Assembly: GCA_009694365.1 (NCBI GenBank)
Contig: SHVE01000004.1
Location: forward strand, 62,001-126,000
Reading direction: 5' to 3'
Length of the DNA stretch: 64,000 nucleotides
From: Thermoleophilia bacterium
GTDB taxonomy: Bacteria > Actinomycetota > Thermoleophilia > Miltoncostaeales > Miltoncostaeaceae
Shown here: piece after piece, positions 16,881-21,004 of the stretch
Layout of the letters: each line of letters begins with the position of its first letter
How positions within the stretch are numbered: the first letter of the stretch is position 1
Made by a program: the position numbers and the translations under genes
Notes under the pieces: model-generated
What the model was told of the DNA's origin: nothing
Databases searched by the model: none
What the model saw: only the letters and a program-made list of their open reading frames with translations

Positions 16881-17015
16881 CTAGGCCGAGAGCCGGGTGC
16901 GGCCCTTGGCACGGCGGCGCTTGAGGATCGCCTGACCGGCGCGCGTCGACATGCGGTGGCGAAAACCATGGGTCTTGCTGCGCTTCCGCGTATTCGGCTG
17001 AAATGTACGCTTCAC
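16881..17015 (-). CDS. rpmH: 50S ribosomal protein L34
   Basis: The 44-residue protein reads [19 protein letters not shown] at its start and ends with [13 protein letters not shown]; this is the full, highly conserved L34. It starts at GTG 17015, preceded by AGGAG (17026-17030 on the minus strand). It heads the minus-strand cluster that runs to parB, while the dnaA side diverges; its promoter must lie in 17031-17356. Confidence 0.96.
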
Positions 17016-17165
17016 TTGCCTACTGCTCCTTGGGACACGGCCACGGGAATCGCCGAGGGTTTGACCCGCGGCACGACACGGAAACACTACCAAAGCGTCG
17101 CCGCGGGTCCACACCACGAACGGTTGAGGTGTCTCGACACCCCTTGCGTGGTGATCTGCCCTCGT

Positions 17166-17301
17166 TCATCCACAGATGTGGACGGATCTGTGGATAACTC
17201 ACCTTTCCCCTGCACCTGCGGGTCTTCGCGTGCGCGCCTCGCGCCCTCGTCGTGTCCGACGACAACGAAATTCCCGCTCGCACGGATGCAGTTCATCCAC
17301 A
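17166..17301. promoter_or_regulatory. DnaA-box cluster upstream of dnaA (origin sub-region 1)
   Basis: The 340-bp gap between rpmH and the GHKL gene holds one perfect DnaA box, TTATCCACA on the minus strand (17189-17197), and two one-mismatch boxes TCATCCACA (17166-17174 and 17293-17301). A weaker CCGTCCACA (17177-17185, minus) fills the space, so three boxes fall within 32 bp. Spacing like this is typical of an origin or of dnaA autoregulation. The same gap must hold the divergent promoters for rpmH and the GHKL-dnaA pair; no promoter with good -35 and -10 boxes was identified. Confidence 0.75.
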
Positions 17302-17356: not shown

Positions 17357-18085
17357 ATGAGCCCGCCGATTCCCGACAGCGACCGCGCTACTCCGCTCCA
17401 TGGCACGACCTTCGTCGTGCGAGTCGCCGTCCACCGGGCAGTCCTCGAGCCGCCGGTCGTGACCGAACTCCGCGACATCACGCCGGCCGCCATTATCGAG
17501 GCAACCTTCTCGTACGTGGCCCAACTCTCGTCGGTTCCTCCCCTCGCGCTGCGCGAGGTGATCGAGAACCTCATCCACGCCGACTTCCGCGACGCCCTCG
17601 TCACCGTGCTCGATGGGGGTCGGACCGTGCGAGTGTCGGACCGCGGACCCGGTATCGCCAACCCCCGCCAGGCGATGGAGCCCGGCTACACCACCGCCGA
17701 CGAGCAGATCCGCTCGGTTGTGCGCGGTGTGGGCTCGGGGCTCGCCTTGGCGTCCGGGCTGGTAGCGGCGGAGGACGGACTCCTGCAGCTCGAGGACAAC
17801 CTCGGTGGGGGATGTGTCGTGACAATCGCCGTCACCGGGGGGCCGGTCGTCGAAGGGCCGGGCATCAGCGGCGCACCGAGCGACACACAGCGCCGCCTGC
17901 TTGCGCTGCTCTTGGAGATGGCTCCCGCACACCCCGAGACCATGGCCCGGGAGCTCGTCCTGCCCCTGGGAACGGTTGGCCGCGAACTGGTGCTCCTTGA
18001 GCACCGTGGCCTCGTCGCCCGTTTCGGTGACGGTGGGCGTGTGCTCACCGAGCGGGGCTCCACGATCGTCGCGACGCTCTTCTAG
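17357..18085 (+). CDS. GHKL (histidine-kinase-like) ATPase fused to a winged helix, in operon with dnaA
   Basis: The protein has 242 residues. Residues 1-60 are a lead-in with no obvious DHp or sensor domain. A GHKL/Bergerat ATPase fold follows, with N-box LREVIENLIHADFRD (about 65-79), G1 box SDRGPGI (94-100) and G2 box GVGSGLAL (124-131). The C-terminus (about 175-242) looks like a winged helix (TMARELVLPLGTVGRELVLLEHRGLVARF). It therefore has an intact ATP site but no phospho-acceptor histidine domain, and carries a likely DNA-binding module. The stop is 3 bp before the dnaA ATG, so the two are almost surely co-transcribed. An ATP-sensing regulator of dnaA or the origin is inference; an anti-sigma-like kinase is the alternative. 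Confidence 0.8.
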   Translation: MSPPIPDSDRATPLHGTTFVVRVAVHRAVLEPPVVTELRDITPAAIIEATFSYVAQLSSVPPLALREVIENLIHADFRDALVTVLDGGRTVRVSDRGPGIANPRQAMEPGYTTADEQIRSVVRGVGSGLALASGLVAAEDGLLQLEDNLGGGCVVTIAVTGGPVVEGPGISGAPSDTQRRLLALLLEMAPAHPETMARELVLPLGTVGRELVLLEHRGLVARFGDGGRVLTERGSTIVATLF

Positions 18086-18088
18086 GCC

Positions 18089-19516
18089 ATGGGCGCGTCC
18101 ATTCCTCTCATTCACGACGCCAAGCAGCTTGAGGCCGTGTGGCAGCAGGTGCTCGAACGACTTCGCGGTGCCCTCAACGCCGCGACCTACAGCCTCACGT
18201 TTGAACGGGCTCGGGCCCTTGGATTCGACGCGGGACGGTTCCGTATCGGCGTGGAGACCGAGTTCGCGCGCGGTTGGATTGTGCAGCGCTATGTCTCGCT
18301 GGTGGGCGACGCCCTGTTCGAGGTCCTGGGTCACGATCTGGTCGTGGCAGTCGAGGTCGTTGCTCCTGACCCGGCGTCCTCTGTGCCCCCGGTCGCTGAC
18401 CCCGCAGCCGTTCCGCCCGTGTCACCCGCCTCGGCGAAGCCGACTCCCCCCGCACCGGCGGCCGGGGCAACGTCTCGGCTGCAGAGCCGCTTCACCTTTG
18501 ACGCCTTCGTCATCGGACCGAGCAACCGGTTCGCGCACGCGGCGGCCCTGGCGGTGGCGGAAACGCCGGCGCGCGCCTACAACCCGCTCTTCATCTACGG
18601 GGGAGTGGGGCTGGGCAAAACCCACCTTCTGCACGCCATCGGCCATTACACCGCCGAGAACCACCCCGGCCTCTCCGTGCGGTACGTCTCGGTGGAGACC
18701 TTCACGAACGAGTTCATCAACGCACTGCGCGACGGCGGTATTCGCACCTTCAAGGACCAGTACCGCAGCACCGACATCCTGCTGATCGACGACATCCAGA
18801 TGCTGGAGGGGCGCGAGCAGACGCAGGAGGAATTTTTCCACACCTTCAACGCGCTACAGGAGAGTGGCAAACAGCTCGTCATCTCCAGCGACCGTCCGCC
18901 ATCCGCCATCAAGACGCTCGGTGATCGGCTGCGGTCCCGCTTCGAGATGGGCCTCATCACCGACGTCCAGCCGCCCGACCTCGAGTTGCGCATTGCCATC
19001 CTGCGCAAACGGGTACTCACTGACGGCTATCAAATCCGCGACCCCGAGGTGCTGACCTTCATCGCGGCCCGGGTGTCGACGAACGTGCGGCAGCTCGAGG
19101 GGGCCCTGATCCGCGTGGTGGCAGCCTCGTCAATCTCCGGGCGTCCCGTCACCGTCGATCTCGCCCAGGAAGTCCTCGTCGATCTCTTCCCGGATGGCTC
19201 GGGTGAAGTCCGCATCGACCTGATTCAGGAGGCGGTCGCCCGCCACTACGGGATCACGCTCGGTGACCTCGTTGGAGACCGCCGCACCAAGCGCGTGGTG
19301 CTCCCCCGCCAGGTCGCTATGTACCTCGCACGGGAGATGACCGATGCGTCGCTCCCGGCCATTGGCAGAGCCTTTGGGGGTCGGGATCACACCACGGTCA
19401 TCTACGCCGTTCAGAAGATCGCGAAACAGCTTGCGGACGGCGGAGACGTCTACGAGGCCGCACAGGCACTCACCTCCGCCCTCACGGCTCGCCGCACGGG
19501 TCCGACTCCGTCGTAA
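18089..19516 (+). CDS. dnaA: Chromosomal replication initiator DnaA
   Basis: The protein has 475 residues in the usual four domains: domain I (about 1-90), a Pro/Ala-rich linker (about 95-130), the AAA+ domain with Walker A GGVGLGKTHLLHAIGHY (from about 171), Walker B LLIDDIQML and sensor motifs, and domain IV with GGRDHTTVIYAVQKI for DnaA-box recognition. DnaA melts the origin in its ATP form and loads the helicase. ATG 18089 directly follows the GHKL-wHTH gene. DnaA boxes lie on both sides of this two-gene unit. Confidence 0.97.
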   Translation: MGASIPLIHDAKQLEAVWQQVLERLRGALNAATYSLTFERARALGFDAGRFRIGVETEFARGWIVQRYVSLVGDALFEVLGHDLVVAVEVVAPDPASSVPPVADPAAVPPVSPASAKPTPPAPAAGATSRLQSRFTFDAFVIGPSNRFAHAAALAVAETPARAYNPLFIYGGVGLGKTHLLHAIGHYTAENHPGLSVRYVSVETFTNEFINALRDGGIRTFKDQYRSTDILLIDDIQMLEGREQTQEEFFHTFNALQESGKQLVISSDRPPSAIKTLGDRLRSRFEMGLITDVQPPDLELRIAILRKRVLTDGYQIRDPEVLTFIAARVSTNVRQLEGALIRVVAASSISGRPVTVDLAQEVLVDLFPDGSGEVRIDLIQEAVARHYGITLGDLVGDRRTKRVVLPRQVAMYLAREMTDASLPAIGRAFGGRDHTTVIYAVQKIAKQLADGGDVYEAAQALTSALTARRTGPTPS

Positions 19517-19576
19517 CCCTCACCATCACCGGATATCACCTGCACCCGCAGTAGCGGCCTCCTGGCCACTGCCTGC

Positions 19577-19609
19577 CACCTGCACAGCGCATCATGCGCT
19601 GTGCAGGTG
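19577..19609. terminator. Strong 15-bp stem, 3-nt loop hairpin after dnaA
   Basis: CACCTGCACAGCGCA and TGCGCTGTGCAGGTG are perfect complements around the loop TCA. It lies between the dnaA stop and a convergent gene, so it could end transcription from both sides. No T-run follows, so it would not be a canonical intrinsic terminator; a role as a factor-dependent end or as an origin element is also possible. Confidence 0.55.
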
Positions 19610-19709
19610 AGTGGAGCTCAGGGGATCATCTGCAGCAATTCACGAGCCACGCCTATTTGATGGTCTGGCTATTGCTGAAGATATGGGCAAAATGGTGGAT
19701 CTGGCCCTT

Positions 19710-20399
19710 CTATTGGACATCGCATACAACGTAGCTGTCCAAGTTACACCAACCGGCATAACTCGGGTTGCCATAAGAATTCAGGATGCATGTGGGATAG
19801 CCATCGACGAAGGCTGATGGCGTGCGTACGGTAATGCTGGCGGCGGGGTATCGCATCGTGTTCGTCTGGGCCTTTTTCGCGTGCTTCGCAAGCTTGCCCT
19901 TCCCCTTGGCATACGTAGCCAATAGCGCTTCAGGCACCGCGGTCATGGTTGCCTGCAGCTTGGCAGTGCCGGGCGTGGCGGTGGGCGGGATGATCACCGG
20001 GGATGTCATCGTCGCGATGAAGGTCTTCTGCTTGCCACCTGAGGTGTAGGCGATCGCGACGTTCGGAGGGTCGGTGGCGAAGGTGTTCGTGCCCTTCTCC
20101 GACCACAGACCAACGAAGCTCCTCATCGAAAGCGTGCCCGCGTCACGAGCGGGTCGGTCGGTGAACCAGATCACCGGCTGCTTTGCCGTACGAATGGGCA
20201 TGGTGAAGGTGTAGGTGCCGTCTTGGCCCTCGACCGGGGCCATCTGGGCGCTTTGGCCCTCGAGAACAAACAGCACCGAGACTTTCCTCTGTTTGGCGTG
20301 CGCGGTCTGCCCTGCCTCAGGCGCGGCCTGGGCAAAAGCGACTGGGGCGGCCACGGCAAGGACTGCGGCCGCGAGGGCGGTACGTGTGCGGGGGCGCAT
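19710..20399 (-). CDS. Secreted protein of unknown function inside the dnaA-dnaN interval
   Basis: The protein has 229 residues with a clear Sec-type signal peptide (about residues 1-25, ending AFAQA). The body has conserved-looking features: LFVLEGQSA, VIWFTDRPARDAGT, SFVGLWSEKGTNTFATDPPN. These recall a family of uncharacterised secreted bacterial proteins, but I cannot name it. Three cysteines near the C-terminus (TCIL, WCNL, VVCDV) could form a disulfide. The start ATG 20399 has a good GAGGAG 8 bp upstream. The 3' end and flank look less GC-rich than their neighbours. It lies opposite in orientation to dnaA and dnaN, an unusual place for a gene. Confidence 0.75.
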   Translation of the reverse strand: MRPRTRTALAAAVLAVAAPVAFAQAAPEAGQTAHAKQRKVSVLFVLEGQSAQMAPVEGQDGTYTFTMPIRTAKQPVIWFTDRPARDAGTLSMRSFVGLWSEKGTNTFATDPPNVAIAYTSGGKQKTFIATMTSPVIIPPTATPGTAKLQATMTAVPEALLATYAKGKGKLAKHAKKAQTNTMRYPAASITVRTPSAFVDGYPTCILNSYGNPSYAGWCNLDSYVVCDVQ

Positions 20400-20676
20400 G
20401 GGGAGTCTCCTCAGATTGGGGCGCGTGGCGTGACCCTAGCCCCATTGCGGGAAAATGCCAGCACGGCCGGGTGCGGTGAAACCTCCACACACCGCGGTGG
20501 TCACACGGGCCTGGGTTGGGGGTGACTCAGGTCACTTGTGGTACCGGGGTGGTGCGCCGGACGGGTACTGGGGGATGTTTGCCTGTTCGCGCATCCGTCA
20601 GCCCCGAGAGTCTCGTTTTCGCACATCGACCCCACGACAAATTCTCCCTCTGTGCGCACTCCGCGTAGGGCGGGAT

Positions 20677-20831
20677 CTGTTCACAACACCCCCGAGGGCT
20701 GTGGATTACCTGTGAAAACCGCCTGCTTATTCGGTGTTTTATCCACACCTCTCCCCGGTGTCGACCACCAACCATCTGCCGCTCTGGGGACGTCTGGGGA
20801 TGGGTTGGCGATCTGTGGGTGTCTTTCCACA
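20677..20831. promoter_or_regulatory. DnaA-box cluster upstream of dnaN (origin sub-region 2)
   Basis: The 605-bp gene-free stretch 20400-21004 holds a perfect TTATCCACA (20739-20747, plus) and a one-mismatch TAATCCACA (20700-20708, minus). Weaker boxes are CTGTTCACA (20677-20685), GTTTTCACA (20711-20719, minus) and CTTTCCACA (20823-20831). A lower-GC patch follows at about 20905-20940. This is the place where oriC usually lies in high-GC Gram-positive bacteria. The 3' part must also hold the dnaN promoter, which was not pinned down. Confidence 0.75.
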
Positions 20832-21004
20832 CACTGTCCCCAAGGGAAAATCTCGTCGCGTGCGGGAGAACTTGGCCGCCATCCCCAGTCCCCACACGAC
20901 CTATGGCAGTTACTACGAACTGAAAGGATTTCTTTTTACCGTCACGGCGAACCCCATGGTGTGTTGGGGGGCATCTCGTTTAAGCCAGCGGGTACGCTGC
21001 CGCT

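Follow-up and report, generated by a model that had tools for sequence, protein, structure and literature searches.

A Bergerat-ATPase/winged-helix gene kept immediately upstream of dnaA as a candidate replication-initiation regulator in deep Actinomycetota, CSP1-3, and some Bacillota

The gene immediately preceding dnaA in the 64,000-nucleotide stretch of Thermoleophilia DNA analyzed here (the window) encodes a GHKL (Bergerat) ATPase with a winged-helix C terminus, and its orthologs lie next to dnaA in every locus where dnaA could be seen. We propose that this gene represents a new class of replication-initiation control, namely, a Bergerat-ATPase/winged-helix switch whose gene invariably heads the dnaA operon of deep Actinomycetota, CSP1-3, and some Bacillota and that would couple an ATP-dependent conformational or kinase activity to the expression of dnaA or the firing of oriC; the probability of this reading is, in our estimate, about one-half. 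That the protein controls dnaA or initiation in some form appears rather probable from the sequence analysis presented below. Replication timing is poorly known outside E. coli, Bacillus, and Caulobacter, and its regulators vary between phyla; a gene that has remained the partner of dnaA in three phyla or more, its ATP site free of mutations, is a strong candidate for a regulator of this kind.

The start codon of the ATPase gene has the same position across the genus. Its TAG stop codon (positions 18083 to 18085) is separated by 3 bp from the ATG of dnaA at position 18089, the spacing that had been reported in a first-pass annotation of the window (Table 1). The window protein matches the HATPase_c profile better than the Pfam cutoff, and PF02518 was detected in 44/44 orthologs subjected to a Pfam scan. 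An AlphaFold2 model of the window protein, built on an alignment of 44 sequences (mean pLDDT, 88.9), comprises, in order, a beta-beta-alpha element, a Bergerat fold (residues 62 to 158), a short, weak linker, and a winged helix, the last modeled as H-H-H-E-E-H with a pLDDT of about 87 to 98 (~80 at the final residues). For the window protein alone, the winged helix is borderline by profile (DprA_WH, 9e-5); among the aligned orthologs, 38/44 match HVO_A0261_N, 30/44 match TrmB, and 26/44 match IclR. The profiles of the orthologs and the model thus support the winged-helix-like C terminus that the first-pass annotation had noticed. The tri-helical core and wing that define this fold are predicted in two distant members: the model of a Coriobacteriaceae ortholog contains the same parts, with the ATPase and the winged helix separated by a low-confidence linker of ~140 residues. 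Long linkers between the two domains were observed in the Coriobacteriia loci L197, L080, and L079; the linker is Pro/Gln rich in L197 and of low confidence in the L080 model. The N-terminal element is missing from some Rubrobacter orthologs as called (ORFs of 211 to 215 aa), and for one of these short-called orthologs, a different query recovers the full-length homologous stretch. Neither a HisKA nor a receiver domain was detected in the window protein by the Pfam scan, in agreement with the initial reading of the sequence; HisKA is also absent from the 25 families listed for the 44 members, and the AlphaFold2 model of the window protein contains no DHp hairpin. The explanation that we consider best, and fairly likely, is a soluble ATPase of the Bergerat type that has the catalytic Glu found in hydrolyzing and serine-kinase-type members of its superfamily and that is joined directly to a winged helix.

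Table 1. Features of the rpmH-dnaA-dnaN region of the window (residue numbers refer to the 242-aa ATPase/winged-helix protein)
Feature	Coordinates	Strand	Evidence
rpmH, divergent neighbor	16881..17117	-	divergent rpmH in 127/127 ortholog loci where seen
DnaA box, 1 mismatch	17166..17174	+	scan; aligned, conserved in genus
DnaA box, perfect, TTATCCACA	17189..17197	-	scan; genus alignment
Promoter-region element ATTCCCGCTCGCAC (TTTTTCCCGCTC in relatives)	17270..17283	+	conserved; also in lineages without the protein
DnaA box, 1 mismatch	17293..17301	+	scan; genus alignment
Putative -10 element TAACGT (TANNNT), just 5' of start codon	17339..17344	+	genus alignment TTGGTAGCGT
GHKL-ATPase/winged-helix protein gene, 242 aa	17357..18085	+	ORF; orthologs
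N-terminal beta-beta-alpha element, residues 19-57	17411..17527	+	AlphaFold2 model, pLDDT about 94-96
Bergerat ATPase domain, HATPase_c, residues 64-158	17546..17830	+	PF02518, E 1.4e-7; fold
N box E67-x-x-E70-N71-x-x-H74-A75	17555..17581	+	E67, E70, N71 invariant in 76/76
G1 box D95-R-G-P-G99	17639..17653	+	D95, G97, G99 invariant in 76/76
G2 box G124-x-G126-x-G128-L129	17726..17743	+	invariant in 76/76
Winged-helix domain, residues 176-241, TrmB/IclR/HVO_A0261-like	17882..18079	+	model and ortholog profiles
dnaA, start 3 bp past ATPase-gene stop	18089..19516	+	TIGR00362, E 5e-156
dnaN, downstream of dnaA	21005..22108	+	place after dnaA kept in relatives

The N, G1, and G2 boxes, described as intact in the first-pass annotation, are all present in the window protein. 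Conservation of the ATP site was counted over 76 deduplicated orthologs, and the site is unmutated in all of them, with ten invariant catalytic-site residues (E67, E70, N71, D95, G97, G99, G124, G126, G128, and L129). The N-4 position, four residues before the N-box Asn, is thus Glu in every ortholog, whereas the histidine kinases recovered in the same scan mostly have Asn at this position (for example, ILNNLLSNA and VLINLVDNA). Glu at N-4 is characteristic of GyrB, MutL, Hsp90, SpoIIAB, and the mitochondrial PDK/BCKDK kinases, and E67 occupies the predicted general-base position of GHL/SpoIIAB-type ATPases. Because this Glu is invariant and there is no DHp domain, ATP hydrolysis or protein-kinase chemistry is suggested rather than the chemistry of a two-component kinase; on the same two grounds, identity as a histidine kinase was rejected. 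The original notion of an ATP-sensing switch may undersell the protein, since the invariant Glu points to such an activity rather than to passive sensing.

The same residue lends some weight to a different, although unlikely, explanation, in which the protein is a SpoIIAB/RsbW-type Ser/Thr kinase or partner switch whose Bergerat domain acts on another protein, perhaps DnaA itself, by phosphorylation or sequestration, with the winged helix merely positioning it at the origin. Glu at N-4 is shared with both SpoIIAB/RsbW and the PDK/BCKDK serine kinases, short SpoIIAB-like proteins from the same scan also have the E-x-x-x-N signature, 29/44 members match the SpoIIAB model weakly, and BCKDK ranks with the best relatives by both structure and profile. 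However, none of these kinases has a winged helix, and the conserved neighborhood consists of rpmH, the ATPase gene, dnaA, and dnaN; neither a sigma factor gene nor one for an anti-anti-sigma (STAS) protein belongs to it.

Orthologs were gathered from genomes related to that of the window, from GTDB contigs, and from phylum surveys, yielding 145 non-redundant loci after deduplication. In 136/136 loci where dnaA is visible, it is located immediately 3' of the ATPase gene on the same strand; in the remaining 9/145, the sequence stops within 333 bp, at a contig or record end. The neighborhood survey thus extends to relatives the linkage originally noticed in the window. None of the three outcomes that the first-pass annotation had named as refuting its reading (no linkage to dnaA in relatives, a fold without a winged helix, or an ATP site mutated in most homologs) was obtained. 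No ortholog away from dnaA was found in any locus examined, and none was seen beside rpmH without dnaA. Among the GTDB matches, those with E values of 1e-24 or better (L031 to L086) are all linked to dnaA or cut off by a contig or record end, and those with E values of 7e-10 and weaker (L087 onward) lack any match to dnaA or rpmH and are for the most part long histidine-kinase-type proteins. The matches that are not linked to dnaA thus form a class of their own, set apart by a gap in E values from 1e-24 to 1e-9. Within the genus, the spacing between the ATPase gene and dnaA is 3 bp throughout, or the two genes overlap at TGATG; elsewhere, it is -8 to 13 bp in many lineages and 80 to 290 bp in several Coriobacteriia. 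We infer translational coupling of the two genes, although, given the wider gap in these Coriobacteriia, tight coupling is not universal.

The rpmH-rnpA-yidC/dnaA-dnaN block is among the best-conserved bacterial gene orders, so the ATPase gene might owe its position to conservation of the block as a whole, with no functional tie to dnaA. Such positional inertia is nearly excluded: the gene occupies the same-strand first position in all testable loci, with spacing of only a few base pairs in many lineages, and it has stayed with dnaA where the rpmH side is gone. Specifically, L058 and the loci of family f2 from the same class (L209 to L211) all four keep the order ATPase gene-dnaA-dnaN intact, and no match to rpmH, rnpA, yidC, jag, or parA was found in the 4 to 7.5 kb upstream of the ATPase gene. 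The upstream genes, named by eye without profiles, are thiamine-pyrophosphokinase-like and moeA-like in L210 and D-Ala-D-Ala-ligase-like and aminotransferase-like in L058. The position of the gene as a by-product of the rpmH block was therefore rejected. Conversely, among 10 genomes from sister families that lack the gene (0/10 with a match near dnaA), dnaA lies 199 to 349 bp from rpmH in all 7 in which rpmH was detected. Thus, because the ATPase gene stays at dnaA where the rpmH side is gone and dnaA sits directly beside rpmH where the gene is missing, the gene belongs with dnaA. In the gene-lacking family f6 (L199, L200, and L203), no rpmH match was found 5' of dnaA, and the opposite-strand ORFs resemble other genes; the origin neighborhood of this family may be rearranged. 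The protein-tree distances of the ATPase-gene protein and the dnaA product are moderately correlated (Mantel r = 0.525; 0/999 permutations), which is consistent with largely shared descent, with some horizontal transfer possible.

The ATPase gene was detected in 150/391 well-assembled genomes of Actinomycetota, with one strong match each and few exceptions, in 38/43 genomes of the CSP1-3 phylum, and in 37/348 genomes of Bacillota, three of which are weak matches (E values of 1e-17 to 1e-15). A search of Chloroflexota yielded 0/151 matches, an empty result that, coming without a positive control, shows little. The carriers comprise Thermoleophilia (Miltoncostaeales), Rubrobacter, Coriobacteriia (Coriobacteriaceae and Atopobiaceae), "Ca. 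Hakubella," the CSP1-3 phylum, and some Bacillota, with Clostridia among the groups named. They apparently include the type strains of Eggerthella lenta and Atopobium parvulum, in whose records the ATPase gene stands at the very start and is followed by dnaA; the published type-strain chromosomes are 3,632,260 bp (PMC3035228) and 1,543,805 bp (PMC3035223) long, respectively. There was no match among 50,697 phage records, and a phage origin of the gene was therefore rejected.

The first-pass annotation had also placed DnaA boxes just upstream of the gene, and the scan located three, one of them perfect (Table 1). Counted at ≤1 mismatch, DnaA-box-like sites reach 6.5 per kb between rpmH and the ATPase gene and 12.6 per kb in the dnaA-dnaN gap; within the ATPase gene and dnaA, the density is 0.12 to 0.15 per kb (0.12 in the ATPase gene). 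Because the ATPase gene sits inside this two-part DnaA-box-rich region, a bipartite origin is suggested. The dnaA-dnaN gap of the window (positions 19517 to 21004) spans about 1.49 kb, compared with roughly 0.4 kb in close relatives, and carries an antisense ORF (positions 19710 to 20399; 229 aa) with a signal-peptide-like start and no Pfam match; the enlargement is apparently an insertion beside the origin that is specific to the window genome. In the Rubrobacter loci L059, L063 to L065, L073, and L086, the dnaA-dnaN gap of ~0.5 kb holds 16 to 19 DnaA-box-like sites, far above the other lineages examined.

The upstream blocks conserved in the genus are a triplet of DnaA boxes, TTTTTCCCGCTC, one more DnaA box, and TTGGTAGCGT. 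A sigma-70 consensus scan of the promoter region found nothing; TAACGT, or TTGGTAGCGT in the genus alignment, is a plausible -10 element close to the start codon. The 14-bp TTTTTCCCGCTC is nearly unique to the ATPase-gene promoter in each genome, and a CCTGCAAA element that follows a DnaA-box cluster is common to Rubrobacter and other clades. Both were considered as the binding site of the protein and rejected, since both are also present at dnaA in gene-lacking sister families. Upstream of dnaA, TTTTTCCCGCTC recurs in L206 and L208, as does the window promoter's TTTTTCCCGC element, and CCTGCAAA recurs in L201, L202, and L204, all of which are without the ATPase gene. Hence, no operator can be assigned to the protein from these conserved elements. 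A composite of DnaA boxes followed ~12 bp later by CCTGC(AAA) (positions 17189 to 17220 in the window) was observed in several classes, with or without the ATPase gene, and occurs in 41/127 gaps, versus 3 expected in mononucleotide shuffles; this composite is possibly an origin element of great age that some factor recognizes.

With no binding site identifiable at dnaA, and given that winged helices in general can have regulons anywhere, the protein might instead regulate other genes and be a mere passenger of the dnaA operon, a location that would let its dose track replication. We regard this as quite improbable, however, because the ATPase gene is never away from dnaA in the loci examined, which would be unusual for a global regulator.

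Under the preferred reading, that of an initiation switch, the gene would be a dedicated, ancient partner of dnaA. The ATPase domain, probably dimeric, would alternate between an ATP state and an ADP (or apo) state, and its state would alter how a sequence-specific winged helix engages the DnaA-box-rich dnaA promoter and origin region, such that expression of the dnaA operon and/or readiness of the origin would be tuned to the state of the cell. With the ATPase gene at the head of the operon and, in many lineages, the start of dnaA only a few bases from the ATPase-gene stop codon, the ATPase protein and DnaA would be made together, at a fixed ratio, from one transcript. In this scheme, ATP hydrolysis, DNA binding, dimerization, the target site, the direction of regulation, and translational coupling are all predicted from sequence. 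The fact that the gene never leaves its spot before dnaA makes it a probable overlooked regulator of replication timing; it probably affects when DNA is copied in many deep-branching bacteria, gut species included. Given its presence in cultured organisms (Rubrobacter marinus and, with the names inferred, Eggerthella lenta and Atopobium parvulum), the proposal is directly testable.

The HATPase_c fold and the N, G1, and G2 boxes place the protein in the GHKL/Bergerat superfamily. Within it, the best profile matches to the ATPase core are the CA domains of two-component histidine kinases, but the dnaA-linked family differs from these in having no HisKA/DHp or receiver domain, Glu instead of Asn at N-4, and a winged helix instead. 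SpoIIAB and RsbW resemble it in having a short Bergerat domain that stands alone and Glu at N-4, and there are weak matches to the SpoIIAB model; however, the window protein scores 20.1 bits against a cutoff of 135 for that model (TIGR01925), short of a family-level match, HATPase_c_2 was detected in just 6/44 orthologs, and the dnaA-linked family adds a winged helix and is encoded near neither a sigma factor nor a STAS partner. The GHL ATPases (MutL, GyrB, and Hsp90) and PDK/BCKDK share the E-x-x-x-N N box, MutL and BCKDK are among the profile matches, and the invariant E67 is the catalytic Glu at N-4 by which GHL proteins are recognized. Yet the dnaA-linked family lacks the extra domains of MutL, GyrB, and PDK as well as an S5-like transducer with its catalytic Lys, the ATPase in the two models being followed by the linker and winged helix alone. 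Assignment to a defense system was rejected, since the PADLOC matches were confined to the winged helix and were nearly all to CARF-type proteins; matches in a viral fold library were mostly to histidine kinases and to small proteins the size of a winged helix.

Known regulators of DnaA and oriC include Hda, SeqA, YabA, Soj, SirA, Spo0A, DnaD, MtrA, AdpA, and CtrA, and if our reading is right, the step at which they act would also be that of the ATPase/winged-helix protein. To our knowledge, none of these is a Bergerat ATPase with a winged helix or the first gene of the dnaA operon. The initial impression that the protein is not a standard initiator regulator held up: no curated family covers it, and no paper on the gene was found in the open-access literature, with subscription literature outside the search. 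One qualification concerns the pairing of an ATPase with a DNA-binding domain. The best solved Foldseek match, DIP2311 of Corynebacterium diphtheriae (3lmm), aligns over both the ATPase and the winged helix (250 to 256 columns; E values of 5e-8 to 3.5e-7). We take DIP2311 to be an AlbA_2/Schlafen-HATPase_c_4-HTH protein of the COG2865 type, without dnaA linkage as far as we know. It differs from the window protein in being about twice as long, with other domains in a different arrangement (rmsd, 18 Å) and 15% identity, and both AlbA_2 (Schlafen) and HATPase_c_4 are absent from the window protein and from the 25 families listed for the 44 members. Thus, the pairing of a Bergerat ATPase with a winged helix has a structural precedent, whereas the family dedicated to dnaA appears to be new.
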